A stretch of 36,767 nt of DNA from an uncultured Pseudomonadota bacterium (GTDB taxonomy: Bacteria; Myxococcota_A; UBA796; GCA-2862545), in the NCBI GenBank assembly GCA_903861005.1, contig CAIOSP010000022.1:1-36767 (forward strand), read 5' to 3'. The notes beneath the pieces are model-generated. The model saw nothing but the letters and a program-made list of their open reading frames with translations. It did no database searches and was not told the origin of the DNA. The translations under genes were made by a program, and so were the position numbers. The first letter of the stretch is position 1, and each line of letters opens with the position of its first letter. This document shows, in pieces, positions 4,051 through 33,068 of the stretch.

Positions 4051-5697
4051 CTAGCCCGCCTTGGGCTGGCGAAGCGGGGAGTACAGGTGCGTCTCGTAGT
4101 CGAGCAGCATGCGCTCGCCGGAGAAGTCCTTCACGGCCATGGAAATCGCCGCGCGCATCATGCGGATCCAGCGGGGGCGGTCCTTCTCGTAGGTGGGCAG
4201 CACCTCGTAGGACAGGACGTGCTCGAGCGCGCCCAGGTCCTTCATGTCGTCGCCCTCGTGGCGGGCCTCGCGGCGGTCGCCGAACTGCCAGCCGTTCACG
4301 CCGTGCTCGCAGGCCTCGTCCCACCAGCCGTCGAGCACGCTCACGTTCAGCGCGCCGTTCGCCGCGGCCTTCATGCCCGACGTGCCGGACGCCTCCAGCG
4401 GGCGACGCGGCGTGTTCAGCCACACGTCACAGCCGCGGGTCAGCAGGCGGCCGAGCGCCATGTCGTAGTCGTCCATCCACACGATCGCGCCCGGTCGGCG
4501 CCGCGCGAAGGTGGCGATCTCCTGCACCATCGCGTGGCCGGACTGGTCGGCCGGGTGGGCCTTGCCGGAGAACACGAGCGCCATCCGACCCGACTCCAAC
4601 AAGGGCGCCAGCCACTCCACGTCGCGCAGCACCAGCGTGGCGCGCTTGTAGGCGGTGGCGCGCCGCGCGAAGCCGACGAGCAGCACGTCAGGCTTCACCT
4701 TCGCTCCGTTGCGCACGTAGATCTCATCGAGGAGGCGCTGCTTGAGCGCCTGGTGCGCGTCCCACAGCGCGGCGTCGTCGCCCTGCGCCGCCGCAGCGAT
4801 CGTCGGATCCTGCCAGGTGCCCATGTGCACGCCGTTCGTGATCGCCGTGATCGGCGCCGCGCCGTCGACGTGCGCCCACATGGTGCGCGCGGTGCGGCCG
4901 TGAAGCTGCGCCACCGCGTTCGCGCGGCCCGACAGGCGCAAGGCGGCCGGGGTCATCTCAAACGGCTCGCCGCCGATGCGGTGGAGCACCTCGCGATCGA
5001 TCGGGCCGCCGGTCACGCCCTGCTCTTCGAGGCGGTCGAGCGGGTGGCACTCGTTGCCGGCCTGCACCGGCGTGTGCGTGGTGAAGACCACCTGCGCGCG
5101 CACGGACGGGAGCGCCTCGTCGTAGCTGGCGCCGCCGAGCATCTTCAGGCGCAGCAGCTCCACCCCCGCGAACACCGCGTGGCCCTCGTTGAAGTGGTAG
5201 AGCGACACGTCCAGGCCGAGCTCGCGCAGCACGCGCACGCCGCCCACGCCGAGCAGGAGCTCCTGCGCAACGCGATCGTCCCCGCTGCCGCCGTACAGGC
5301 GCCGGGTGATCCAGCGGTCCCACTCGTCGATCGGCTCCAGCAGCAGCAGCGGCGCGTTGCCGTGAATGTCGACCCGGTAGGCGGTGACACGCACCTCCTT
5401 GCCGCGGATCCGCACGGTGACCTCGACGCCCGTGGGGCGGAGCGCCTGGCGCGGCGTGGGGAGCCACGCGTCGATCGGGCGGCCGTGCTCGTCGAGCACC
5501 TGGTGCGTGTAGCCCTCGCTCCAGAAGATGCCGATGCCGACCATCGCCTTGCCCTGGTCGTGCGCCGACTTGAGTACGTCGCCCGCGAGCACGCCCAGGC
5601 CGCCCGCGTAGGTGGGCAGGCGCTCATCCAGGCCGAATTCCATGCAGAAGTACGCCACCACGTCGTTGAGATCGGCGAGCGGGTCGACTGGGATCAT
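4051..5697 (-). CDS. glgP: alpha-glucan phosphorylase (GT35, short form)
   Basis: Releases glucose-1-phosphate from alpha-1,4-glucan ends using phosphate and pyridoxal phosphate. The EASGTSGMKAAANGAL motif holds the PLP-binding Lys (about 443); the N-terminal AYFCMEFGLDERLPTYAGGLG and YHFNEGHAVFAG segments and TNGVHMGTW are typical of the short bacterial/archaeal alpha-glucan phosphorylases (TIGR02094-like), much shorter than the ~800-residue E. coli enzyme. The start is ATG 5697, with GAGG 6 bases upstream; an upstream open stretch to 5814 overlaps the preceding gene and is low-complexity. It begins 17 bases after the fusion gene ends. 548 residues; nothing is missing that I can see. Confidence 0.93.
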   Translation of the reverse strand: MIPVDPLADLNDVVAYFCMEFGLDERLPTYAGGLGVLAGDVLKSAHDQGKAMVGIGIFWSEGYTHQVLDEHGRPIDAWLPTPRQALRPTGVEVTVRIRGKEVRVTAYRVDIHGNAPLLLLEPIDEWDRWITRRLYGGSGDDRVAQELLLGVGGVRVLRELGLDVSLYHFNEGHAVFAGVELLRLKMLGGASYDEALPSVRAQVVFTTHTPVQAGNECHPLDRLEEQGVTGGPIDREVLHRIGGEPFEMTPAALRLSGRANAVAQLHGRTARTMWAHVDGAAPITAITNGVHMGTWQDPTIAAAAQGDDAALWDAHQALKQRLLDEIYVRNGAKVKPDVLLVGFARRATAYKRATLVLRDVEWLAPLLESGRMALVFSGKAHPADQSGHAMVQEIATFARRRPGAIVWMDDYDMALGRLLTRGCDVWLNTPRRPLEASGTSGMKAAANGALNVSVLDGWWDEACEHGVNGWQFGDRREARHEGDDMKDLGALEHVLSYEVLPTYEKDRPRWIRMMRAAISMAVKDFSGERMLLDYETHLYSPLRQPKAG

Positions 5698-5714
5698 CAG
5701 AAACCTCGAGGCGA

Positions 5715-8700
5715 TCAGGAGAGTTGGTGGGGGAGGAGGCGGCCGGACTGCATGACGGCGTCGCGAACGCGCCGCGCGAGGGCGGCGTCGAGCTGGCCTG
5801 GGCGGAGGCGCCACGTCCAGTTTCCGGTGGAGGTGCCGGGCACGTTCATCCGTGCCTCGCTCCCTAGCCCGAGCACGTCCTGCGCGGAGAGAACCGCCCA
5901 GATCGACGCCGAGTGGAGCGCCAGCTGGATGATCTCCCAGACCACCGCCCCGCGCGGATCATGCAGCGCCTGGCGCGCGACGGCGCGCGCTTCGGGCGTG
6001 AGCTGGTTCCACCAGCCGAGCAGCGTGTCGTTGTCGTGGGTGCCGGTGTAGACCACGCTGCGGACGGGGTGGTTGGACGGGCGGTGCGGGTTGGCGCGGT
6101 CGCCGTCCAGGCCGAACTGCAGCACGCGCATGCCCGGGTAGCCCATGCCCTCCTGCACCGAGGACACGTCTGGACCGACGTCTCCAAGGTCCTCCGCGAT
6201 GATCGGCATCGCGCCCAGCCTCGCTTCGATCGACTCGAAGAAGGCGCGGCCAGGGCCCTGGATCCAGCGACCGTGGCGGGCGTCGGGCGAGTCCGCGGGC
6301 ACGGACCAGTACCGCACGAAGCCGATGAAGTGGTCGAGCCGTAGCGCGTCGACCTGGCTGAACGCACGACGCAAGCGCCCGCGCCACCACGCGAAGCCGT
6401 CCTTCGCCATCGCGTCCCAGTCGAAGAGCGGGTTGCCCCAGCGCTGGCCCAACTCCGAGAAGACGTCGGGAGGCACGCCCGACACCGCCTTGGCGATGCC
6501 GTCCGGATCGAGTTGGAACACCTCGCGTGAGGCCCAGGCGTCGGCGCTGTCGTGGCCCACGTAGATCGGCACGTCGCCGAGGATCCGGACGCCGCGGGCC
6601 GTCGCGTAGTCGCGCACTGCGCGCCATTGGCGCTCGAAGATCCACTCGCGCGCGATCCACAGTTCGATCGCGGGCTTGAGGCTCTGCCGGGCTTCGGCCA
6701 GCGCGTCCGGCGTGCGACGGCGCAACGGATCCGGCCAGGACCACCAGGGGAGGCCGCCCTGCGCCTCGTGGAGCGCGGCGTACAAGGCAGCCTCACGCGC
6801 CCACGGGTTGGCGTCGGCGAAGCGCTGAACCGCGTCGTGCCAGGGATGCGCGACATCGGCGAGCAGCGCCTTGGCGGCGTCGAGCACGCGCGCCTGCTTC
6901 CAGGTCGCGGCGAGGACCGGATCGACTTGGCCGATCGGCGGCTCGGGCGACACGCGGTCGCGTGAGGTCAACAGGCCGGCCTCGACCAGCGGACCGAGGC
7001 CGATCAGCTCGAAGCTCCCGGAGAGCGCGGAGCCGCTGCTGTAGGGCGATCCGCCCAGGCCCGGAGGGCAGAGCGGGAGCACCTGCCACACGCCAAAGCC
7101 CGCGTCGTGCATCCAGTCGATCGCGTCGTAGGCGGCGTCCAGATCCCCGACGGGACCGTCTCCCGGCAGCGACGTGACGTGCAGGAGCATGCCCGCGGCC
7201 CGCGGAAACGAGGCGGGCACCGCGGGTTGGCGCAAGGGGCCGAGCGCTTCGCCCTCCTCGGCGAGGGTGTCGAGGGCGGCGCGCTGGTGCGGCGCGTGGA
7301 CGGGGTTCGGCACACGCCGCGCGTGATCCACGTCCGCGACGAGGTCCGTCACGTCTTCATTCGATGGGAAGGCGGCCACCGCCTGCAGCAGCGGCCCCGA
7401 GAGGTCGACCCCGAACACCTCTTGCAGCAGCCCGACCGCGCACGCCGCGTGGCGCAGCAGAAGCCGTGACTCCAGGCCCGTCACCTCGTCGAAGAACCAG
7501 CCGCAGCTGGTGTACATCGCGAGCAGGTGGCGGTGGATCTCCAGCGCGGCGTGTGCCTCGTGCAGCTCCACCAGCGTGGGCTGGGCGAGCCCGCCGTGCT
7601 CGTGGAGCCAGGCGTGGAAAGCCTCATTCGAGCGGTCCTGCAGCAGCTCCACGTAGGCGTCGCGCGCGGCGTCGAAGTCGCGGAACGTGGCGCTGACCAC
7701 CGGCGCGAGCGCCTCGCGGGCGCTGTCGCGCAGGGCGTCCAGCGCGGCCCGCAGCGGCGCGCGCCACCGCTGGTGGGTGCCAGGCGTGAAGTGGCACCCG
7801 CAGTCTGACCGCCAGCGCTCCACGCCGTGCGCGCACGACCACGAGGTCTGCTCGAAGATCTCGGCTTCCCAGCTCGGAGGCACCCGATCGAGGTGCGCGC
7901 CGTAGGTGGTGAGCCGCACGCGCCCGTCCTGCTCGACCACCTCCATCGCTCGCGCGAGCGCCATCTCGCCGAACTTGTGGTGGTGTCCGTAGGACTCTCC
8001 GTCGGTGGCGAAGTGCGTGAGGCTGTCGCCGCCGGCGCGCAGGGCTTCGTCGATCAGCCGTCGGCCAAGCGCCTCTCCGTCCCTCAGGCCGTCGCCGAAC
8101 GCCACGTCCTGCGCCAGCGTCGCGTCGTAGGCGAACACGGCGATCGTGCGACCGCTGGGCAGCGTGACCCGCAGCGCGCGGCGCGTGGTCTCGTCGACCT
8201 CGGAGGCCTCAAGCCAGGTCTCGGACCCGATCGGACGGACGCGCCGAACCTGGCGCGGCGCCAACACCACGAAGCGGATGCCTGCGTCCACGAGCGCGTC
8301 GAGCGTGGGGCTGTCGACCGCGGCCTCGGGCAGCCAGAAGCCGTCAGGGGGGCGCCCGTAGCGCAGCGCGAAGTCGCGAACGCCCCACATGATCTCGGTC
8401 CGGCGATCGCGTGCGTCGCACAGCGGCAGGATGGCGTGGTGGTAGCCCTGCGCCATCGCGGGGCCGCGGCCGCGCTCGCGGGCGCACTCTTGGTCGGCGC
8501 GGACGAGCGCGTCGTGCACGCCGGCGCGGTTGGCCGCCAGCCACTGCAGCAGGGTGGGGCCGACGTCGTAGGACAATGACGCGTAGTTGCTGCGCACCGC
8601 GCGCCGCTTCCCGTGGCCGTCGAGCAGCCGCGCGGCGGCGTTGGGCGCGTAGCACTCGTCGGTGATGCGCTCGTTCCAGTTGCGCCAGGGCGTCGCCGTG

Positions 8701-8780
8701 GGCTCGTCGGGCCACACGCCGGTCCACGGATCTTCCCGGGTGGGCTGGTAGAAGTGCGCGTGCAGGCAGAGATAGGTCAC
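5715..8780 (-). CDS. GH57 (DUF3536-type) + 4-alpha-glucanotransferase (MalQ) fusion
   Basis: A 1021-residue two-enzyme polypeptide. Residues ~1-480 are a GH57 family glycosidase with a DUF3536-like helical tail: HAHFYQPTRED at the N-terminus, WNERITDECYAPNAAARLLD, likely nucleophile E152 in FWLPEAAVD and likely acid/base D260 in TDGESYGHHH. Residues ~505-1021 are a complete GH77 amylomaltase: MLLHVTSLPG, SPYSSGSALSG, nucleophile D816 in LRLDHFIGF, E863 in AEDLGDVG and D916 in THDNDTLLGWW. MalQ disproportionates maltodextrins; the exact GH57 substrate is unknown but is presumably alpha-glucan. The start is GTG 8780, 7 bases after glgB, with its GAGGA site overlapping the glgB stop. No internal start or stop separates the halves. 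Confidence 0.92.
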   Translation of the reverse strand: MTYLCLHAHFYQPTREDPWTGVWPDEPTATPWRNWNERITDECYAPNAAARLLDGHGKRRAVRSNYASLSYDVGPTLLQWLAANRAGVHDALVRADQECARERGRGPAMAQGYHHAILPLCDARDRRTEIMWGVRDFALRYGRPPDGFWLPEAAVDSPTLDALVDAGIRFVVLAPRQVRRVRPIGSETWLEASEVDETTRRALRVTLPSGRTIAVFAYDATLAQDVAFGDGLRDGEALGRRLIDEALRAGGDSLTHFATDGESYGHHHKFGEMALARAMEVVEQDGRVRLTTYGAHLDRVPPSWEAEIFEQTSWSCAHGVERWRSDCGCHFTPGTHQRWRAPLRAALDALRDSAREALAPVVSATFRDFDAARDAYVELLQDRSNEAFHAWLHEHGGLAQPTLVELHEAHAALEIHRHLLAMYTSCGWFFDEVTGLESRLLLRHAACAVGLLQEVFGVDLSGPLLQAVAAFPSNEDVTDLVADVDHARRVPNPVHAPHQRAALDTLAEEGEALGPLRQPAVPASFPRAAGMLLHVTSLPGDGPVGDLDAAYDAIDWMHDAGFGVWQVLPLCPPGLGGSPYSSGSALSGSFELIGLGPLVEAGLLTSRDRVSPEPPIGQVDPVLAATWKQARVLDAAKALLADVAHPWHDAVQRFADANPWAREAALYAALHEAQGGLPWWSWPDPLRRRTPDALAEARQSLKPAIELWIAREWIFERQWRAVRDYATARGVRILGDVPIYVGHDSADAWASREVFQLDPDGIAKAVSGVPPDVFSELGQRWGNPLFDWDAMAKDGFAWWRGRLRRAFSQVDALRLDHFIGFVRYWSVPADSPDARHGRWIQGPGRAFFESIEARLGAMPIIAEDLGDVGPDVSSVQEGMGYPGMRVLQFGLDGDRANPHRPSNHPVRSVVYTGTHDNDTLLGWWNQLTPEARAVARQALHDPRGAVVWEIIQLALHSASIWAVLSAQDVLGLGSEARMNVPGTSTGNWTWRLRPGQLDAALARRVRDAVMQSGRLLPHQLS

Positions 8781-8787
8781 GCGGTCC

Positions 8788-10665
8788 TCATGCCGGAGTC
8801 AGGAAGACCGCGCCCAGCGGCGGCAGGTCGAGCGCGAACGAGGCGGCCATGCCGTGCGCGGGGATCGCCTCCGCGACAAACCTGTCGCGGCCGAGCAGGC
8901 CTGTGCCCCCGTAGCCCGGGAAGTCCGTGTCCAAGAGCACCTTCCATGCGCCGCCGATCGGCACGCCGATCCGGTAGCCGGGGCGCGGCGTGGCCGTGTG
9001 GTTGGCGACGAACGCGACCGGCGCCTTGCCCGCCGTGTCCCAGCGCAGAAACGCGAGCACGCTCTGCTTGGCGTCGTCGGCGTCGATCCACTGAAAGCCC
9101 AGCTCCTCCGCGTCGCGCTCGTGCAGCGCGGGCGAGGCACGCATCAGCGTGAGCAGGTCACGCACCAGCAGCGCGACGCCCGCGTGCGCCGGCTGCGCCT
9201 CCAGCCCGGTCCAGTTCACGCCCCACTCCAGGCTCCACTCGTGATCCGGCGCCAGCTCGTCGCCCATGAACAGGAGCTTCTTGCCCGGCTGCGCGAACAT
9301 GGAGGAGAGCAGCAGCCGCACGTTCGCGAAGCGCTGCCAGGGGTCGCCCGGCATCTTGCCGAGCAGCGAACCCTTCCCGTGCACCACCTCGTCGTGCGAG
9401 AGCGGCAGCAGGTAGTTCTCAGCGGCGCGGTACAGGCTGCGGAAGGTCAGCTCGTTGTGGTGGTGGGGGCGGTAGATCGGCTCGCGCGCCAGGTAGCGCA
9501 GCGTGTCGTTCATCCAGCCCAGGTCCCACTTCATGTCGAAGCCCAGGCCGCCGTCCGACACCTTGCGCGTCACGCCCGGCCAGGCCGTCGACTCCTCCGC
9601 GATTCGCAGCACGCCTGGGAAGCGCGCGCCCAACAGCTCGTTGAGCTCCGACATCAGGCTGACCGCCTCGTCGTTGGTGTTGCCGCCCCGCACGTTGGGG
9701 AGCCACTCGCCGGCCTCGCGGGAGTAGTCCAGGTAGAGCATCGACGACACGGCGTCGACGCGGATCCCGTCTACGTGAAACCGATCGATCCAGCAGCACG
9801 CGGACGACAGCAGGAAGCTGCGAACCTCCGGGCGGCCGTAGTCGAAGATGGCGGTGGTCCAGTCGGGGTGCCAGCCGCGGCGCGGGTCCGGGTGCTCGAA
9901 CACGGGGCCGCCGTGCAAGCGGTACAGCCCGTGCGCGTCGGTGGGGAAGTGGGCGGGGACCCAGTCCAACACCACGCCGATTCCCGCCGCGTGGAGCGCG
10001 TCGATCATCCACGCCAGATCCGCCGGGTCACCCCAGCGCGAAGTCGGCGCGAAGAAGCTGGTGACCTGGTAGCCCCACGACGGCCCGTAGGGGTGCTCCA
10101 TCACCGGCATCAGCTCGACGTGCGTGAAGCCCAGCGCCTTCACCCGGGCGATCAGGTGCGGCGCGACCGTGCGGTAGAGCGGGCCGTCGCCCAGCTTGAG
10201 CCCCGCCGCGAACGAGCCCAGGTGAACCTCGTACAGCGCGATGGCGTCGCGGCGCGCGTCGACCATGGGCCGACGCTTCATCCACGCCGCGTCCGCCCAG
10301 CGGTGCGCCTTGGGGCCAAGCCGGGACGCGGTGAGCGGCGGCGTTTCGGTCCAGGTCGCGAACGGGTCCGCCTTGTCGCGCCACACGCCGTCGATCCCGT
10401 GCACGCGCAGCTTGTAGCGGTCGCCCGCGCGGGCCTCATCGATCGTGGCCTCCCAGATGTCGTCGGCCACCTGGGTCATGGGGACGGGCCGCGCGGTCCA
10501 GTCGGTGAAGTCGCCGATGACGCTGACCGCGTCCACGTCAGGCACCCAGGCGCGAAACTGGCCGCCGCGCCCTTTGGCGCCACAGTCCGCGCCCAGCACC
10601 TCATGCAGTCGGTCGTGCCGTCCGCCGTGAAAGTGCCAGGAGTCGTCGGCGGTCCAGCTTCGCAT
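8788..10665 (-). CDS. glgB: 1,4-alpha-glucan branching enzyme (GH13)
   Basis: Cuts alpha-1,4 chains and rejoins them as alpha-1,6 branches in glycogen. The 625 residues contain an N-terminal CBM48 module (~25-110: FRAWVPDVDAVSVIGDFTDW) and a GH13 barrel with VHLGSF, VELMPVMEHPYGPSWGYQ, nucleophile D304 in GIRVDAVSSML, acid/base region E357-E358 in IAEESTAWPGV and the third Asp in LSHDEVVHGKGSL. A C-terminal beta domain ends the protein. It lacks the extra N-terminal domain of the longest GlgBs. First gene of a minus-strand operon with the GH57-MalQ fusion, glgP and glk; divergent from the heme lipoprotein gene at 10810. The ribosome binding site before ATG 10665 is weak. Confidence 0.96.
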   Translation of the reverse strand: MRSWTADDSWHFHGGRHDRLHEVLGADCGAKGRGGQFRAWVPDVDAVSVIGDFTDWTARPVPMTQVADDIWEATIDEARAGDRYKLRVHGIDGVWRDKADPFATWTETPPLTASRLGPKAHRWADAAWMKRRPMVDARRDAIALYEVHLGSFAAGLKLGDGPLYRTVAPHLIARVKALGFTHVELMPVMEHPYGPSWGYQVTSFFAPTSRWGDPADLAWMIDALHAAGIGVVLDWVPAHFPTDAHGLYRLHGGPVFEHPDPRRGWHPDWTTAIFDYGRPEVRSFLLSSACCWIDRFHVDGIRVDAVSSMLYLDYSREAGEWLPNVRGGNTNDEAVSLMSELNELLGARFPGVLRIAEESTAWPGVTRKVSDGGLGFDMKWDLGWMNDTLRYLAREPIYRPHHHNELTFRSLYRAAENYLLPLSHDEVVHGKGSLLGKMPGDPWQRFANVRLLLSSMFAQPGKKLLFMGDELAPDHEWSLEWGVNWTGLEAQPAHAGVALLVRDLLTLMRASPALHERDAEELGFQWIDADDAKQSVLAFLRWDTAGKAPVAFVANHTATPRPGYRIGVPIGGAWKVLLDTDFPGYGGTGLLGRDRFVAEAIPAHGMAASFALDLPPLGAVFLTPA

Positions 10666-21266: not shown

Positions 21267-22070
21267 ATGTCTTCGACCGTCCGAACGCTGGCTTTTTTGC
21301 CGTGTCTGCTGGGCGTGGCCTGCTCCTCCGGTCAGCCCGTTGAGGTGCGGTTCGCGGCGCGCTTCGGCGACGCCGACGCGGCCTGCGGTTCGACCTACGA
21401 CGCGATCGGAACCACCGCGTCATCCGTCGAGCTGCTGGATCTGCGCGCGTACATCAGCGGCCTGAAGATCGACGGCGCGGGCACCATCGACGCGGAGGAG
21501 CCCTGGCAGTCCCAGGACGTCGCGCTGCTGGACTTTGAGGACAAGACGGGCGCGTGCACGGGGAACGCCGACCTGCGCGCCGTGGTGCGCGCCCACGCGC
21601 GGGCCGACTCCGGCACGCTGGAGTTCGACCTGGGCGTGCCGGAGTCGCTCAACCACCTCGACCCGGCCAAGCTCACGTCGCCGCTCAACGTGTCGTCCAT
21701 GTTCTGGGGTTGGACGGCCGGCTTTCGCTTCCTCAAGCTGGACCTGGCGACCACCGGTCAGCCCGCGGGCTGGGTGGTGCACATCGGCAGCTCGGGCTGC
21801 GCCGGCGTGACGGGCGGCAACGCCGCGTGCGTCGAGCCGAACCGCGTCCACGTGACGCTGGAGGGCTGGACGCCGGACAGCACGGTCGTGATGGACCTGT
21901 CCAAGCTGGTGGCGGGCGCAGACGTCGACACGAACACCGAGAACACCGGCCCGGGCTGCATGTCCGAGCCGAACGACCCTGAGTGTGTGGGCGTGTTCGA
22001 GGCGCTCGGACTGCCGCTCGGCGACGCGCCCGCCGGGGAGCAGACGGTGTTCTCGGTGGAGGCGCCGTGA
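21267..22070 (+). CDS. mbnP: MbnP family copper-binding lipoprotein
   Basis: 267 residues; lipobox LGVAC (Cys19). The mature protein follows the MbnP / 'metallo-mystery pair four-Cys motif' family: VEVRFAARFGDADAACG, VELLDLRAYISGLKI, MFWGWTAGFRFLKLDL, VVHIGSSGCAG and GPGCMSEPNDPEC, with three likely disulfide pairs. In studied members a Trp is oxidised to kynurenine by the partner MbnH, creating a Cu site; the FWGW Trp residues and His in VVHIG are candidates here, but I cannot assign which. The partner gene overlaps by four bases (GTGA). Periplasmic or surface copper binding is expected; no methanobactin genes are in the window. Confidence 0.9.
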   Translation: MSSTVRTLAFLPCLLGVACSSGQPVEVRFAARFGDADAACGSTYDAIGTTASSVELLDLRAYISGLKIDGAGTIDAEEPWQSQDVALLDFEDKTGACTGNADLRAVVRAHARADSGTLEFDLGVPESLNHLDPAKLTSPLNVSSMFWGWTAGFRFLKLDLATTGQPAGWVVHIGSSGCAGVTGGNAACVEPNRVHVTLEGWTPDSTVVMDLSKLVAGADVDTNTENTGPGCMSEPNDPECVGVFEALGLPLGDAPAGEQTVFSVEAP

Positions 22071-23458
22071 ACGCCGCGTCGCTGCTGCTGGTCACGCTCG
22101 CCGCCTGCAAGACGGACGCGCCGCCGACGACGCCCTACACGTGGGACCTGCCGCCTTCGCTGCCCGAGCCGGCCGTCCCCGACGACAACCCGATGACCGC
22201 GGAGAAGGTGGAGCTGGGTCGCCACCTGTTCTACGACAAGCGCATGAGCTTCAACGGGACGCGGTCGTGCGGCACCTGCCACAGCCAGGCGGAGTCGTTC
22301 TCGGGCGGGGCGGCGTTCTCGCTCGGCGCCACCGACGAGCCCAGCGCGCGCAACGAGCCCAGCCTGCTCAACGTCGCCTACAACGCGGTCTACACCTGGG
22401 CGGATCCCGTGCCGGTGACGCTGGAGGAGCAGATGCTCCTGCCCATGTACAGCGAACACCCGGTCGAGCTGGGCCTCACCGGCCACGACGACGCGCAGTT
22501 CGCGCTGCTGCGCGCGGACAAACGGCTGGGCGAGCTGTTCTCGGCCGCGTACCCGGACGAGGAGGACCCGGTCGACCTGACGAACATTGTCAACGCGATC
22601 GCCAGCTTCGAGCGTACGATCCTGTCGGGTCGGTCGCCGTACGACAAGTACTTCGTCGAGGGCGACGTGTCGGCGATCCCGCCCGAGGCGGTGCAGGGGA
22701 TCACGCGCTTCTTCTCGGAAGACCAGGAGTGCTACCACTGCCACGGCACCTACAACTTCACCGACTCGGTGACGCAGAAGGGCGCGGCGTTCGTCGAGAC
22801 GCCCTACCACAACACCGGCCTGTACAACGTGGACGGGGCGGGGGCGTACCCGGCGTCGGACCAGGGCCTGGCGATGTTCACGCATGACCCGGCCGACATG
22901 GGCAAGTTCAAGGCCCCGACGCTGCGCAACATCGCGCTCACGGGGCCGTACATGCACGACGGCAGCGTGGCGGATCTGGACGGCGTGATCGATCACTACG
23001 CGAGCGGCGGGCGCGTGATCGCGGACGGACCCAACGCGGGCGACGGTCGCGCCAACCCCTACAAGGATCCGCTGCTCAAGGGGTTTGTGCTCGACGACAC
23101 CCTGCGCGCCCAGCTCAAGGCGCTGATGCTGGCGCTGACCGACGAGACGGTGCTGCACGAACCGAACCTGTCGCCCGCCTTCGACTGCCCCGCCGACGTG
23201 CTGCCTGCGTGCCCCGCCACGCCGCCGAGCTTCATGGCCGACGTCGCGCCCCTCCTACGCGACAGCTGCGTCACCTGCCATGACGTCGGCCGGGGCGCCA
23301 CGACCGAGCTGATGTCCACCTGGGAGCAGGCGCACGCGCTGCACGACAAGCTGGTCGAGCAGATCCACGCGTGCACCATGCCCGCGGACTCGCGCCTGCC
23401 GGACGCTCAGCGCGCGACGCTGCTCGAGTGGCTCGCCTGCGATGACCCAAACAACTGA
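22067..23458 (+). CDS. mbnH: MbnH di-heme enzyme with extra C-terminal heme domain
   Basis: 463-residue member of the MauG/bacterial cytochrome c peroxidase superfamily, with lipobox-like LAAC near the N-terminus. Heme sites are C68-GTC-H and C222-YHC-H; W111 in YTWADPVPVTLEEQ occupies the inter-heme Trp position of MauG-type enzymes, and MLLPMYSEHPVELG and LRNIALTGPYMHDG are typical. MbnH oxidises a Trp of MbnP. Unusually, about 85 C-terminal residues add a third CxxCH (C401-VTC-H) and a C..MP...L...QR.TLLEWLACD segment that closely matches the lipoprotein encoded at 23489-23854. GTG start, overlapping mbnP. Confidence 0.92.
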   Translation: MNAASLLLVTLAACKTDAPPTTPYTWDLPPSLPEPAVPDDNPMTAEKVELGRHLFYDKRMSFNGTRSCGTCHSQAESFSGGAAFSLGATDEPSARNEPSLLNVAYNAVYTWADPVPVTLEEQMLLPMYSEHPVELGLTGHDDAQFALLRADKRLGELFSAAYPDEEDPVDLTNIVNAIASFERTILSGRSPYDKYFVEGDVSAIPPEAVQGITRFFSEDQECYHCHGTYNFTDSVTQKGAAFVETPYHNTGLYNVDGAGAYPASDQGLAMFTHDPADMGKFKAPTLRNIALTGPYMHDGSVADLDGVIDHYASGGRVIADGPNAGDGRANPYKDPLLKGFVLDDTLRAQLKALMLALTDETVLHEPNLSPAFDCPADVLPACPATPPSFMADVAPLLRDSCVTCHDVGRGATTELMSTWEQAHALHDKLVEQIHACTMPADSRLPDAQRATLLEWLACDDPNN

Positions 23459-23488: not shown

Positions 23489-23854
23489 TCAGCGCGGCGC
23501 GTCGCACACGAACCAGTTCAGCAGCGTGCGGCGCTCCTCGTCGGACAGCAGAACGCCGTCCCTGGGCATCGCGCAGGTCGAGACAAGCTTCTCAGCCGCG
23601 TCACGGCGCGCGAACACCGCCTCGTAGGTGTCGAGAGGGAGGGTGGACAGCTGCGCGTCAGGCGCATGGCACAGCACGCACGCGTGTCCGAGGATCGGCT
23701 GCACCTGGGCGTAGGTGGGCGGGTTGGGCGGGCAGGAGGTTGGCGCGTCCGCGAGGCACGAGCCGCCGAACATCTGGCAGCCCGCGGAGGCGACGACCAT
23801 GAGCGCGAGGACGGCGCGGGAGGTCCCGGTCCGAAAGCTACGGGACGTCGACAT
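23489..23854 (-). CDS. mono-heme c-type lipoprotein
   Basis: 121 residues; lipobox ASAGC (Cys26). One heme motif, C59-VLC-H, within VQPILGHACVLCHAPDAQL, and a tail CAMPRDGVLLSDEERRTLLN leading to WFVCDAPR. The whole mature domain aligns with the C-terminal extension of the MbnH encoded opposite (23267-23458), including the CxxCH, the C-x-MP element and the WxxCD ending. It is likely an electron carrier for, or detached copy of, that domain. Its start lies 17 bases inside the upstream YtkA-like gene, implying translational coupling. It converges on mbnH with a 30-base gap. Confidence 0.85.
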   Translation of the reverse strand: MSTSRSFRTGTSRAVLALMVVASAGCQMFGGSCLADAPTSCPPNPPTYAQVQPILGHACVLCHAPDAQLSTLPLDTYEAVFARRDAAEKLVSTCAMPRDGVLLSDEERRTLLNWFVCDAPR

Positions 23855-24368
23855 AGAACGCGACCTGCCCGTGCGGCGAGCTGGCGCCGAGCGCGCAGTC
23901 CTCAAACAGGTGGAAGCGCACCGTCCAGCGGCCCTTCTTGTCGAACTGCACCGGGCCGACGGTGTAGGTCCCGGCCGGGCCCTCCACCGTGGTCGCGCCG
24001 GTGTCGGGCGCGGCGTGGGTGTCGTCGAGGAACACGTCGGCGCGGATGGTGGCGCCGGTGACCGTCGCCCCGCCGTCGAGCGCCCACGCGGACACGGTGA
24101 AGGTCACGTCCTTGTCCCGCTCGATCGTCGAGTTGGTGAACGACAGGTGGTACTTGCAGGCGTCGTCCTGACCGTCGGAGTTGTAGAGCGTGTCGCCGAA
24201 CACGTCCGCGCCGTCGTCGGCGCCCTCACACACGGACGGATCGATGGCCTGCACGGTCTCGCCGCAGTGGGTGTCGGGGTCACCTGCGACCACGCCGCCC
24301 GTCCCGCCGCACGCCGCGGCGAGTGCACAGAGCGCGAGCTGTCCGACACGAGCAGGGAGACGAGCCAC
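23838..24368 (-). CDS. YtkA-like domain lipoprotein
   Basis: 176 residues from GTG 24368, chosen because AGGAGG lies five bases upstream; a longer reading frame to 24440 has no such site. Lipobox LAAAC (Cys20). Four Cys occur in the N-terminal third (HCGETVQAIDPSVCEG, DACKYHLSF). The C-terminal half is an immunoglobulin-like fold resembling YtkA/FixH domains: KDVTFTVSAWALDGGATVTG, TYTVGPVQFDKKGRWTVRFH and PHGQVAFYVDVP. Function is unknown; proximity to mbnPH and to the heme lipoprotein suggests a common copper or heme-related task, which is inference. Confidence 0.8.
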   Translation of the reverse strand: MARLPARVGQLALCALAAACGGTGGVVAGDPDTHCGETVQAIDPSVCEGADDGADVFGDTLYNSDGQDDACKYHLSFTNSTIERDKDVTFTVSAWALDGGATVTGATIRADVFLDDTHAAPDTGATTVEGPAGTYTVGPVQFDKKGRWTVRFHLFEDCALGASSPHGQVAFYVDVP

Positions 24369-24479
24369 GGAGACCTCCTGGAGAACGCGACGGCGGGTGG
24401 AGGAATAATCCATGTCTCGCGCGACGTGCAGGGGCAGCATGTCGCAACCGGACGAATCGGGGCACGCGGTGCGGAGCCG

Positions 24480-26000
24480 TCAGGCGGTGGCGAGCAGATC
24501 CAGGTCGGCGATGCGACGCGAGTTCATGTCCGCCAGGGCCATGATGGTGGCCTGAGGGTTGACCGCGGACGGGCTGGGGAACACGCTGGCGTCCATCAGC
24601 CACAGGCCCTCCGTGCCGTAGACCTTGCCGTTCACGTCGACCACGCCGCGATCGGCGCGCCCGCTCATGCGGCAGGACCCGAAGGTGTGATTGGCGGTCA
24701 TGGTGACATCGCGCGCCTGGATGTCGTGCGACAGCAGGCTCATCGCCTGCTCCTTGGTGCGGATCTTGGGCGGTACGCCGCGGACGCCCGTGTAGACGTA
24801 CTCAGCGCCCAGGTCGAGCATGGAGTCGACGACGCGCTTGAGCTCGCTCAACACCACCCACATCTCCTCGTTCGGCACCCAGAGCTGGGCGTCCGGCATG
24901 CCGTCGAGGCGGATGCCGACCTTGCCCGTCACCTTGGCCCGGTAGACGATCGGGATCATCAGCGCGCGCTTGAAGTCGGGGAGCATCTCGTACATGTCGG
25001 GGCCGACGCCGCCCCACTGCCCGCCGATCAGCGCCGACGGCGCCCAGAGCGACTCGAACTTCAGGCCGCGCACCCGGTCGCTGAACGCGCCGTAGCCCTG
25101 GGTCGCGCCGATCCACGGATCCACGGTGTGGTTCATCACGCCCATGGCGAAGCTGGAGATGTGCGCCAGGAACGTGCCGCCCACGCGCCCGCCCGCGGTC
25201 ACGCCGCTGCGCTTGAGGATCACGGGCGTGTGCAGCGTGCCCGCCGACACGATGACGCGCGGCGCGCGCACCGTGAAGCGCGCGAGCTTGGCGTGGCCGT
25301 CCGGGTCGACGATGTGGCCCTCGACGCCGACGGCGCGGGTTCCGTCCATCAAGATCTTGTGGACCACGGCGCAGGTGTAGACCTCCGCGCCGTCTTGCAC
25401 GGCGCCGGGCAGGTAGCTGCGGTCGACCGACTGCTTGGCGCCGACCGCGCAGCCGGTGAGGCAGTCGCCGGTGCCCTCGCAGCCCTTCACGGCGCGCGGG
25501 AGCGGCGCGCCCTTGAGCCCCGCGTGGTCGAGGATCTCGCGCGTGAGCACGTTGCGGCGACCGAACACCGACTCGGGCGTGGGCGCGGTGTGTGTGCGCG
25601 CGAACACGCGCTTGTAGGCGGCGTCGAGCTCGGGCCCGCGCAGGGCGTCGAGGCCGTCGGCCGCGGCCCAGTCCTCGCGGACCCAGTCGGGCAGCGGGAA
25701 CATGATCGCCGAGTTGATGACCGTGCTGCCTCCGAGGATTCGGCCGGACATGGTGGGCCAGGCGCCGGTGCCGCGCAGCAGGCGCAGGCCGCCCTCCCAG
25801 TAGTGGCGCGCCATGAACGCGGGCCCGTCGCGGGTCATGTCCTTGGCGCTGATCTGGGGGCCGGCCTCCAGCAGCACGGTGCGCAGCCCGGCGGCCGCGA
25901 AGTTGGTGGCGGCGACGGCGCCACCCGCGCCGGAGCCGATGATCACGACGTCCGCGTCGACCTCGAAGCCCTGCCGGAGCGAGTCCAGGTGGTGAATCAC
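24480..26000 (-). CDS. GMC family FAD oxidoreductase (system 1)
   Basis: 506 residues. N-terminal FAD site VVIIGSGAGGAVAATNFAAA, GRILGGSTVINSAIMFPLP, and the C-terminal GMC_oxred_C part with NHTFGSCRM and SAVNPQATIMALA, which contain the usual active-site His and Asn. Residues 174-184 (C-EGT-GD-C-LTG-C) correspond position for position to the four-Cys motif of the second GMC protein in this window, but Thr177 replaces one Cys. Substrate unknown; relatives oxidise long-chain alcohols or sterols. GTG start overlaps the stop of its small partner gene (GTGA). No signal peptide is evident. Confidence 0.93.
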   Translation of the reverse strand: MIHHLDSLRQGFEVDADVVIIGSGAGGAVAATNFAAAGLRTVLLEAGPQISAKDMTRDGPAFMARHYWEGGLRLLRGTGAWPTMSGRILGGSTVINSAIMFPLPDWVREDWAAADGLDALRGPELDAAYKRVFARTHTAPTPESVFGRRNVLTREILDHAGLKGAPLPRAVKGCEGTGDCLTGCAVGAKQSVDRSYLPGAVQDGAEVYTCAVVHKILMDGTRAVGVEGHIVDPDGHAKLARFTVRAPRVIVSAGTLHTPVILKRSGVTAGGRVGGTFLAHISSFAMGVMNHTVDPWIGATQGYGAFSDRVRGLKFESLWAPSALIGGQWGGVGPDMYEMLPDFKRALMIPIVYRAKVTGKVGIRLDGMPDAQLWVPNEEMWVVLSELKRVVDSMLDLGAEYVYTGVRGVPPKIRTKEQAMSLLSHDIQARDVTMTANHTFGSCRMSGRADRGVVDVNGKVYGTEGLWLMDASVFPSPSAVNPQATIMALADMNSRRIADLDLLATA

Positions 26001-26624: not shown

Positions 26625-28145
26625 GTGGCGGTTCGCAAGCTGGAGTGGGCGCTCGGGATCGTGTTGGCGGTCGGGGGCTGCAAGCCCGCCAAGGACGCCC
26701 CGACGGACACGGACGACGCCGAAGTGGTGGTCGACACCGACGTGGCCTCCACGGTGGAGTCCTTCTGTCTCCGCTTGAGCGCGGAGATCTGCGGCGGCCT
26801 GCAGGCGTGTGACTGTCGGTTCGACGTGCGGCCCTACACGGCCGACGCGTGCGTGGCGACGCGCGCCCAGGAGTGCGAGACCTTCCTGGCCACCGCGCTG
26901 CAGGCCGACCTCGACGCGGGTCGAGTGACGCTGGATTCGGACCGCGTCAACCGCTGCGTGGAGGGCGTCCGGGCCATGGCGGACAGGTGCTCGGTGACAT
27001 GGACGGGCGGGCTCCCGGAGGTGTGCGCGTTGACGTTCACGGATGCCGCGGAGCTCTCGGCGCGGTGCGTCGCCCAGGGCGACGGGGCGGCGTTCTGCGC
27101 GGGCGGCGCGGGCCTCTGCACGTACTCTGAGCGTGAGCAGGCGGCGGTGTGTGTGGCGCTCCCGCTCCAAGACGAGGCCTGCCCGCAGGGTGTCTGCGCC
27201 GAGGACTTCCGCTGCGCCCAGGGCCGCGGCGTGTGTGTGGCGCCGGGTGGACAGGACCACCCCTGCTCGGAGAGCGCCGACTGCGGGGATGGCTTGGTCT
27301 GCGGCACCGGCCGGACGTGCGGAGCGCCGATCCCGGTCGGCGGACGCTGTGACGCCACGCCGCAGTGCGAGGAGGGGCTGTCCTGCGACGACGGCACCTG
27401 CGCGGCCTCGGTCCCGCTCGACGGCGGCTGCTACGGTCCGGTCGAGTGTGGCGCCGCGCGGTCTTGCGGGCGCGCGCCGGAGTCGCGGACCTGCGGCGCG
27501 CCGGACGGCTTCGGCCAGGAGTGTCGTGACGGCACCTGCGGCGACAGCCTGGCGTGCGCGTCGGCCACGCAGACCTGCGTGACGCTGCCCGGCGCCGACG
27601 AGACCTGCCTGGACGGGTTCGCGTGCGGCGACGGCCTGACCTGCGCCGACGGGCTCGGCGTGTGCGCGGTGCTCCCGGGCCTGGGCGACACCTGCGCGTC
27701 GGGGAGCCGCTTCTGCGACGACGGCCTCGGCTGCGACTTCAACACGAACACTTGTCAGGCTGGCCCGGGCGAGGGCGAAGACTGCCTGCTCAACCCGCCG
27801 GACTACGTGTGCGCGGAGGGCCTGGGCTGCGACTTCGGCACGATGGGCAGCGTGTGCGTGTCAATCGGCGGCGCGGGGAGCGTCTGCAACACCGATCGCA
27901 CCTGCGCGTCCGACACCTTCTGCGACTTCACCACGCTGCTGTGTACCGACCGGTACGCGGACGGCGCGCCGTGCGCTCAGGGCGGCGAGTGCGCGGTCGG
28001 CTCCAGCTGCTCGCCGCAGCCTGAGGGCTACGTGTGCACGCCGATCCCCGCGCGGGGCGAGGTGTGCGTGGACGCGTGCGACCAGGGCAGCGTGTGCAAG
28101 GGCCCAGGCGGTCAGTGCGTGCAGACGTTCTGCGTCATCCCGTAA
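26625..28145 (+). CDS. Cys-rich repeat lipoprotein
   Basis: 506 residues from GTG 26625 (GGAGG five bases upstream). Lipobox AVGGC (Cys19), then an Asp/Thr-rich linker and a ~100-residue Cys-containing helical domain. Residues ~147-506 contain about twelve units of ~28 residues with four Cys each, such as CSESADCGDGLVCGTGRTC and CLDGFACGDGLTC, reminiscent of Dickkopf-type Cys-rich modules common in myxobacterial surface lipoproteins. The units should be disulfide-bonded knots forming an elongated surface rod. Function unknown. The 3' end overlaps the convergent HD gene by 11 bases. Confidence 0.88.
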   Translation: MAVRKLEWALGIVLAVGGCKPAKDAPTDTDDAEVVVDTDVASTVESFCLRLSAEICGGLQACDCRFDVRPYTADACVATRAQECETFLATALQADLDAGRVTLDSDRVNRCVEGVRAMADRCSVTWTGGLPEVCALTFTDAAELSARCVAQGDGAAFCAGGAGLCTYSEREQAAVCVALPLQDEACPQGVCAEDFRCAQGRGVCVAPGGQDHPCSESADCGDGLVCGTGRTCGAPIPVGGRCDATPQCEEGLSCDDGTCAASVPLDGGCYGPVECGAARSCGRAPESRTCGAPDGFGQECRDGTCGDSLACASATQTCVTLPGADETCLDGFACGDGLTCADGLGVCAVLPGLGDTCASGSRFCDDGLGCDFNTNTCQAGPGEGEDCLLNPPDYVCAEGLGCDFGTMGSVCVSIGGAGSVCNTDRTCASDTFCDFTTLLCTDRYADGAPCAQGGECAVGSSCSPQPEGYVCTPIPARGEVCVDACDQGSVCKGPGGQCVQTFCVIP

Positions 28146-31032: not shown

Positions 31033-31539
31033 ATGGAGACGCGTCTGATCAGCCGTCGGGCGCTGATTCGAGGCGGGCTGGCGGTGGGGGCGGCGCTTGG
31101 CGTGGCCGCCACCGTCCGCCTGCCGCCGGTGGCGTCCGGCTACACCACGTTCTCCTGGCGCGAGATCGAGATCCTCGGCGCCATCGCCGACGCGATGTTC
31201 CCGGCCGGGCCGGTGCTGATCTCCGGTCGTGACGCGGGCGTGGTCGAGGAGGTCGACCGGATCATCGGGACGGGCTTCCCGCCCATGCACGCCATGGGCT
31301 TTCGCTACCTGCTGCGCACGCTGGAGTGGGGGACGGTCGCCACGTTCGGCACGTCGTTCTCTCGGCTGTCGGTGGAGGACGCGCGCGCCGTGCTCGACAG
31401 CTGGGGAGACCCGGGCCTGCTGCCGCGGCGCATCGCGTCCGACGTGCTGCGGACCGTGTTCGGGATGGCCTACTTCGCCAACCGCGAGGTGCAGCGCGCC
31501 ATGGAGTGGCGGTCGCTGTGCGGGTCGGGGGCGGCGTGA
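31033..31539 (+). CDS. Tat-exported small partner subunit of GMC oxidoreductase (system 2)
   Basis: 168 residues. The N-terminus carries a twin-arginine signal (SRRALIRGG followed by LAVGAALGVAATV). The remainder (ILGAIADAMFPAGP, FPPMHAMGFRYLLRTLEWG, SFSRLSVEDARAVLDSWGD, LRTVFGMAYFANREVQRAME) resembles gluconate 2-dehydrogenase subunit 3 and aligns with the system 1 small subunit. Since the GMC partner has no signal of its own, the two may be exported together through this Tat signal, as known for some flavoprotein dehydrogenases; that is inference. AAGG precedes the ATG by five bases. GTGA overlap with the GMC gene. Confidence 0.88.
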   Translation: METRLISRRALIRGGLAVGAALGVAATVRLPPVASGYTTFSWREIEILGAIADAMFPAGPVLISGRDAGVVEEVDRIIGTGFPPMHAMGFRYLLRTLEWGTVATFGTSFSRLSVEDARAVLDSWGDPGLLPRRIASDVLRTVFGMAYFANREVQRAMEWRSLCGSGAA

Positions 31540-33068
31540 GCGCGCTGTTTACCCCGGGGCGTCATCGCTCGGCTGAGGTCACCGGGGACCACCTGGAGAT
31601 CGACGCCGACGTGGCGATCCTGGGCGCGGGCGCGGGCGGCTGCGCGGCGGCGGCGGCGCTGGCGGAGAGCGGGGTTCGCGTCGCCGTGCTGGAGGAGGGC
31701 CAGTTCTGGAACCCGGCGCAGTTCCGGCAGTCCTCGTCGTGGGCGCTGCGCAACCTGTACCAGGAGCGCGGCACCCGCTCGATGCGCGGCAACTCGGTGA
31801 TCCCCATCCCGGGCGGGCGCGGCGTGGGCGGCAGCACGCTGGTGAACTCGGCCATCTGCTTTCGCTGTCCGGACCCCATCCTGGACCGATGGCACGACGA
31901 GTTCGGCTGCACCACGGTCACCAAGGAGCGCTTCCACCCGTACTTCGACCGCATCTGGGAGACGCTGGGCGTCACCACGCAGAGCGCTGAGATCCAGCGG
32001 CTGAACAACACCACCTTCAAGAAGGGCGCTGAGGCGCTGGGCCTCAAAGGTCACTTCCTGGCGCGCAGTGCGCCGGGGTGCGTGGGCTGCGGGATCTGCC
32101 AGTACGGCTGCCCGTCCGGCGGCAAGTCGAGCGTGGATCGCACCTTCCTGGTCGAGGCGCTGAGCCACGGGAACGTGGCGGTCTACGCCGACTGCATGAT
32201 GACCGGGGTGGAGAAGTCCGGAGATCGGATCCTAGCGGTGACCGGCGATCTGCTCGACGCGGAGAGCCAGGCGCCGCGCGGCACGGCGCGGGTACGGGCC
32301 GACGCGTTCATCGTCAGCTCCGGCCCGATCATGTCGCCGTCCTTCCTGCTGCGGAACCACCTGTCGGACCCGGCGCACTGCGGTCAGCACCTGTGCGTGC
32401 ACCCGGGGCTCGCGGGGATGGGGCGTATGCCGTTCGAGATCCGGCCCTGGCATGGCGTCACGCAGGGCTACTACGTGGACTGCTGGGACAAGGGCTACCT
32501 GCTCCAGACCTTCTCGGTCACGCCGGACCAGTACTACGGGCTCATGTCGACCAAGACCGGGGCCGAGTCCATGGAGTGGATGGCCAACCTCAAGTACATC
32601 TGCAGCGCGGGCCCGCTGGTGCACGACGAGGACAGCGTCGGGCACGTCACCTGGACGCCGTTTGGGCCCGACATCAGCTACTTCATGGGCGACGGCGACA
32701 AGCGCAAGCTCATCGATGGGCTGCGCATGACTGGTCACGTGATGTTCGCCGCGGGCGCCGAGCGCTTCATGCCGGCCGTGGTCCAGGGCCCGATCGTCCT
32801 CAAGGCGGGCGACATCGACGCGGCGCTGCCGCACAGCCTGCCGGCCAGCCACCTGCACGCCTACGCGTCGCACCCCATGGGCACCTGCCGCATGGGCAAT
32901 GACGCCGCCACGTCGGTGGTCGACCCGCACGGCAAGGTGTGGGGCTGGCAGAACCTGCGCGTGGCGGACGCCAGCGTGTTCCCGACGAGCCTGGGCGTGA
33001 ATCCGCAGGTCACCACCATGTCGATGGGCCTGATGATCGGGCACAGCTTGGCGGGGAAGATCCCGTAG
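31536..33068 (+). CDS. GMC family FAD oxidoreductase with four-Cys cluster motif (system 2)
   Basis: 510 residues. FAD-binding VAILGAGAGGCAAAAALAES, GGRGVGGSTLVNSAICFRCP, and C-terminal ASHPMGTCRMG and SLGVNPQVTTMSMG with the active-site His and Asn. Residues 182-192 read C-VG-C-GI-C-QYG-C-P, the spacing of a ferredoxin-type [4Fe-4S] site (CxxCxxCxxxCP), which also occurs in a subset of bacterial GMC proteins. It could pass electrons from FAD toward a respiratory carrier instead of oxygen (inference). GTG start overlaps the small-subunit stop. A strong hairpin follows the gene. Confidence 0.93.
   Translation: MSALFTPGRHRSAEVTGDHLEIDADVAILGAGAGGCAAAAALAESGVRVAVLEEGQFWNPAQFRQSSSWALRNLYQERGTRSMRGNSVIPIPGGRGVGGSTLVNSAICFRCPDPILDRWHDEFGCTTVTKERFHPYFDRIWETLGVTTQSAEIQRLNNTTFKKGAEALGLKGHFLARSAPGCVGCGICQYGCPSGGKSSVDRTFLVEALSHGNVAVYADCMMTGVEKSGDRILAVTGDLLDAESQAPRGTARVRADAFIVSSGPIMSPSFLLRNHLSDPAHCGQHLCVHPGLAGMGRMPFEIRPWHGVTQGYYVDCWDKGYLLQTFSVTPDQYYGLMSTKTGAESMEWMANLKYICSAGPLVHDEDSVGHVTWTPFGPDISYFMGDGDKRKLIDGLRMTGHVMFAAGAERFMPAVVQGPIVLKAGDIDAALPHSLPASHLHAYASHPMGTCRMGNDAATSVVDPHGKVWGWQNLRVADASVFPTSLGVNPQVTTMSMGLMIGHSLAGKIP

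Follow-up and report, generated by a model that had tools for sequence, protein, structure and literature searches.

The DNA that we analyzed, referred to here as the window, is a 36,767-nucleotide stretch of contig CAIOSP010000022.1 (GenBank assembly GCA_903861005.1) from an uncultured bacterium of the GTDB lineage Myxococcota_A; UBA796; GCA-2862545. On its forward strand, an mbnP gene (21267-22070) encodes a predicted copper-binding lipoprotein that is the presumed substrate of MbnH. The MbnP protein scores 223 bits against TIGR04052 (cut-off, 140 bits) and 112 bits against PF20243, and it carries, as FWGW, the WxW motif that is invariant in the 50 MbnP sequences that we aligned. An mbnH gene with a C-terminal extension follows on the same strand (22067-23458), and its GTG start codon at position 22067 overlaps the mbnP stop codon as GTGA. 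Facing mbnP and mbnH from the reverse strand are two overlapping genes. One encodes a stand-alone mini-cytochrome lipoprotein (23489-23854); this gene is convergent with mbnH and ends 30 bp away from it. The other encodes a YtkA/FixH-like lipoprotein (23838-24440) and overlaps the start of the mini-cytochrome gene; its match to PF13115 is weak, at 22.4 bits, below the gathering threshold of 25.9 bits. Directly upstream of the YtkA-like gene, and also on the reverse strand, lies a gene for a GMC-type FAD oxidoreductase (24480-26000; PF00732/PF05199).

An MbnH protein with a third heme-binding motif

The window's MbnH protein is 463 amino acids long and has a lipobox, LAAC, at residues 11-14. 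The NCBIfam model for MbnH, TIGR04039, matches residues 37-370 with a score of 437.5 bits against a cut-off of 362.85 and is covered over its full length (model positions 1-334 of 336). The best solved structure is that of MbnH (6e1c; E = 7e-103, residues 6-376). When aligned with 6e1c, the core of the window protein displays two CxxCH motifs, CGTCH (C68-H72; 22268-22282, forward strand) and CYHCH (C222-H226; 22730-22744, forward strand), together with a tryptophan, W111, in a TW(A)xP segment. We also considered MauG, the methylamine dehydrogenase maturation enzyme, and rejected it given a TIGR03791 score of 151.3 bits against a cut-off of 443.85.

The protein has three CxxCH motifs in all (C68, C222 and C401), the last of which lies outside the core. 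An original prediction, made from the sequence alone, had described an MbnH with a third CxxCH at this position, and translation and motif scanning confirmed its coordinates and motifs. The third motif belongs to an extension of approximately 90 residues (C374-N463; 23186-23455, forward strand) that starts almost directly after the MbnH core. Within the extension we find CVTCH (C401-H405; 23267-23281, forward strand), CTMP (C436-P439; 23372-23383, forward strand), and a WLAC ending with the last cysteine at C458. Pfam's monoheme cytochrome family PF13442 matches residues 394-456 at 29.1 bits, just above its gathering threshold of 27. By these motifs, a third c-type heme would be attached at C401-H405, M438 is probably its distal ligand, and C436 may take part in a disulfide. 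Structure prediction of the full protein from an 8-row alignment reached a pLDDT of 48, which is too poor for reading heme-heme distances. Prediction of the extension from a 2-row alignment was likewise poor, with a pLDDT of 62, and a fold search of the PDB with that model returned no match with an E value below 0.001.

Since the source assembly is a draft genome of 223 contigs, an assembly or frame artefact has to be considered. The reading frame is uninterrupted, the extension matches a Pfam family above threshold, and two other genomes have the identical architecture. Together these rule out chance and leave very little room for misassembly, and we regard the likelihood of an artefact as negligible.

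The extension resembles the neighboring mini-cytochrome

The stand-alone mini-cytochrome begins with MSTSRSF, has the lipobox SAGC and a single CxxCH, and is kept beside the YtkA-like gene in other genomes. Its mature form is 39% identical to the MbnH extension, and the two share two N-terminal cysteines, the CxxCH, the CxMP, a tryptophan and the last cysteine, which bears out the predicted match between the extension and the convergent lipoprotein 30 bases away. Searching the whole genome with the extension finds no close match other than the mini-cytochrome, at 52 bits, with the next match at 18 bits. We compared 12 such domains, drawn from nine genomes: the first two cysteines, a CP, the CxxCH and the CxMP are invariant, and the last cysteine is kept in all except one truncated sequence. 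Other monoheme domains in the window's class are without the extra cysteines and score at most 57 bits against a model of the subfamily, compared with 141-150 bits for the four domains from which that model was built, a gap that is biased by this choice. These observations support placing the extension and the neighboring lipoprotein in one subfamily of small cytochromes. The four extra conserved cysteines probably give the domain a compact, disulfide-stabilized fold.

A fold of this kind would also suit a docking module: by binding either MbnP or the YtkA-like protein, the domain would place the enzyme next to its substrate, and its heme would be mainly structural. A lipobox is present in every product, and the genes lie together, as such a role would have it. 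The invariance of CxxCH and CxMP in 12/12 domains is instead what is expected of a working redox heme, and we consider a docking role improbable.

C-terminal cytochrome extensions are rare among MbnH proteins

We surveyed MbnH proteins in the 71 genomes of the window's class, in an even draw of 379 genomes from the phylum (112 with MbnH), in 318 genomes from a second class of the phylum (135 with MbnH; this sample overlaps the phylum draw), and in 398 genomes of Pseudomonadota (17 with MbnH). An MbnH was counted as extended when its alignment reached the end of the query without stops. Among well over 200 MbnH matches in the phylum and Pseudomonadota, only three are extended, all of them in draft genomes: that of the window, one in a genome of the window's order but of a different family (G030), and one in a genome of a different class (G878). 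None of the 54 other MbnH genes whose DNA we read encodes a CxxCH in its tail, which spans 0-27 residues after the core. For the remaining MbnH matches, absence was judged from the end of the alignment, a procedure that unrelated types of extension could escape. Four genomes (G930, G984, G956 and G085) gave partial matches past the MbnH stop codon, and these were rejected because no mini-cytochrome follows. The original prediction that ordinary MbnH enzymes carry two hemes and that the domain seen here is an addition thus stands, and the extension is rare rather than a general feature of the family. In the open-access literature that we searched, we found no description of an MbnH-cytochrome fusion; key MbnH papers lie outside that literature, and an earlier mention is possible.

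Extended MbnH genes are linked to a YtkA-like/mini-cytochrome pair

The two other loci with an extended MbnH contain orthologues of the window's YtkA-like gene beside a mini-cytochrome gene. The G030 locus (L031) reads YtkA-like (5150-5803, forward), mini-cytochrome (to 6150, forward), a lipoprotein gene, MbnP (6645-7457, forward) and extended MbnH (7473-8879, reverse). In G878 (locus L157), the YtkA-like, mini-cytochrome, MbnP and extended MbnH genes occur in that order on one strand throughout. Near both of these loci, we also find a histidine kinase with a Fis-type response regulator and a second YtkA-like protein, which were not seen in the window. Considering the 22 MbnH neighborhoods with at least 6 kb of total flank, the YtkA-like/mini-cytochrome pair is adjacent in 3/3 cases with an extended MbnH and in 0/19 with an ordinary one (Fisher p ~6.5e-4, relatedness neglected).

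At least six further genomes in the phylum carry the same pair at a locus without MbnP or MbnH (loci L142, L145, L139, L147 and L151 are among these). The association of the stand-alone cytochrome with the YtkA-like protein is therefore an older one, and the extension is a member of this cytochrome family that became joined to MbnH. Loci with the pair only would represent an uncharacterised redox module. Near several of them lie a second YtkA-like gene, a gene for a Phenol_MetA_deg-like outer-membrane protein, a c554-type multiheme cytochrome, or a histidine kinase/Fis-type response regulator.

The GMC-type oxidoreductase gene is a neighbor and a candidate member of the module; besides the window, it occurs beside the YtkA-like gene only in the congeneric genome G006 (locus L138, contig C108, 7884-8540). 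There, the contig carries the GMC and YtkA-like genes and ends 18 bp past the YtkA-like frame, at the very point where genes for the mini-cytochrome and MbnH would come next. The window itself holds two related GMC-type FAD oxidoreductase genes within 7 kb, the one described above and another at 31326-33068 (forward strand). Between them, at 26625-28145 (forward strand), lies a gene for a 506-residue cysteine-rich lipoprotein with repeated cysteine-containing segments and a weak match to DUF7107.

Origin of the fusion

When the cores of 58 MbnH proteins are placed in a tree, that of G030 falls with two unextended MbnH proteins from its family, including one from its genus (supports 98/88 and 100/99), and apart from the core of the window. 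A single clade of the window and G030 extended cores is rejected (p-AU 7e-7), and with it a common origin for these two extended enzymes. The MbnP tree concurs, with the G030 MbnP grouping with the same two genomes (100/99). When G878 is added to the core tree, the three extended proteins occupy three separate positions, and a grouping of the window with G878 is not rejected (p-AU 0.33). Since the window and G030 cores do not form one clade, the extension has been gained at least twice or has moved by recombination between MbnH genes. The fusion of a cytochrome domain to the C terminus of MbnH, linked to the YtkA-like/mini-cytochrome pair, is thus real, rare and recurrent, with two or more independent origins apparently behind it.

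A tree of the cytochrome domains resolves nothing, the domain being too short, and groupings of all extensions together and of each extension with its own neighbor are both not rejected. The identities are flat: the window extension is 40-41% identical to domains of other genomes and 39% identical to its own neighbor. The original prediction had proposed a recent domain duplication or split. Because 39% identity is also what separates these domains between genomes, a recent duplication in the window genome is unsupported. The lipoprotein type belongs to an older family that accompanies a YtkA-like gene in genomes lacking mbnP and mbnH at that locus.

Given that the pair adjoins mbnP and mbnH in all three cases, accidental fusions with the adjacent cytochrome gene are possible, and the extension could then be neutral or vestigial. 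Against this, three divergent genomes all keep an intact extension, at 40-47% identity and with every motif present. Moreover, the stand-alone gene of the window is convergent with mbnH, so read-through cannot have fused the two. We consider a neutral or vestigial fusion quite improbable.

A possible electron inlet for MbnP maturation

MbnH-type enzymes use a high-valent diheme state to oxidize a tryptophan of MbnP to kynurenine, and the modified MbnP then binds copper. By homology, the window's MbnH would probably act in the cell envelope on the conserved tryptophan of its MbnP, creating a copper site. We favor, with a probability of roughly 0.55, the reading that the gene specifies a diheme enzyme of the MbnH type whose C-terminal third c-type heme domain serves as a built-in electron inlet. 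The domain would have been drawn from a family of small lipoprotein cytochromes that are normally separate proteins encoded beside a YtkA-like protein. Once fused, it may take electrons from the periplasmic pool, perhaps by way of the stand-alone cytochrome, and pass them to the six-coordinate heme; in this way the diheme centre could be activated by reduction or be recharged with O2 or peroxide. An inlet of this kind would let the reaction run on O2 and electrons, or it would keep the enzyme active.

That one and the same type of domain has been joined to MbnH repeatedly suggests that the two exchange electrons as a pair, and the fusion points to the mini-cytochrome as the natural electron-transfer partner of MbnH. 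The direction of transfer proposed here is favored by analogy within the superfamily: classical peroxidases receive electrons from small monoheme cytochromes, and in triheme non-classical peroxidases such as YhjA the third heme serves electron supply (PMC10301912). A point against an inlet is that, with H2O2 as the oxidant, the conversion of tryptophan to kynurenine requires no outside electrons. The third heme might instead be an outlet, draining electrons from MbnP oxidation, or quenching bis-Fe(IV) holes, toward the stand-alone cytochrome and the respiratory chain. The anatomy of the protein fits either direction, and multiheme cytochromes do lie near the YtkA-like/mini-cytochrome pair in other genomes. 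However, the enzymes of this superfamily shed oxidizing equivalents via peroxide or O2, and the known third heme donates electrons (PMC10301912); an outlet thus seems unlikely.

More tentatively, the electron inlet may be one element of a conserved copper-protein maturation module composed of the YtkA-like protein, the mini-cytochrome, MbnP and MbnH. Such a module would have joined its own type of cytochrome to MbnH at least twice, revealing the natural redox partner of the enzyme, and kynurenine formation in it would be tied to delivered electrons rather than to free peroxide. A cytochrome that is fused to MbnH in unrelated lineages, and is in every case encoded next to its stand-alone counterpart and a YtkA-like protein, provides a concrete candidate for the electron partner. 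The single-chain enzyme would make electron delivery during the tryptophan-to-kynurenine conversion measurable, and the fusion suggests a function for a YtkA/mini-cytochrome pair that is widespread and uncharacterised.

Comparison with known systems

The locus resembles known MbnH/MbnP pairs (TIGR04039/TIGR04052; 6e1c) in its diheme core, its WxW-containing MbnP partner, the order of MbnP followed by MbnH, and the GTGA overlap, but differs from them in the extra C-terminal monoheme domain and in the presence of the YtkA-like and mini-cytochrome genes. The triheme peroxidases YhjA, PerC and QPO are likewise enzymes of the CCP_MauG superfamily with an extra monoheme domain, one that is thought to supply the two core hemes with electrons (PMC10301912). 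In those enzymes the third heme lies at the N-terminal end, after a membrane helix, and is fed by quinol, whereas that of the window would lie at the C-terminal end of a predicted MbnH-family lipoprotein. A YhjA-type triheme peroxidase is ruled out for the window, where the extra domain is C-terminal and the N terminus is a lipobox. MauG belongs to the same superfamily and, by homology, would share bis-Fe(IV)-type protein modification chemistry with the window's enzyme, but it has no third heme.

The SACCP/MopE and CorB/CorA systems of methanotrophs are alike in pairing a diheme enzyme with a copper protein. A tryptophan of MopE becomes kynurenine, and MopE/SACCP parallels MbnP/MbnH, although the partner proteins MopE and CorA are not markedly similar to MbnP; a C-terminal cytochrome extension of SACCP or CorB is not described in the same report (PMC3621798). 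We also considered a methanobactin operon and rejected it, as no MbnB/MbnC-type genes lie beside mbnP and mbnH. The genome (G000) has two PF05114 (MbnB/TglH/ChrH-type) genes, and these are located on other contigs, unlinked to the locus described here (C11:42455-43228 and C93:14791-15579).
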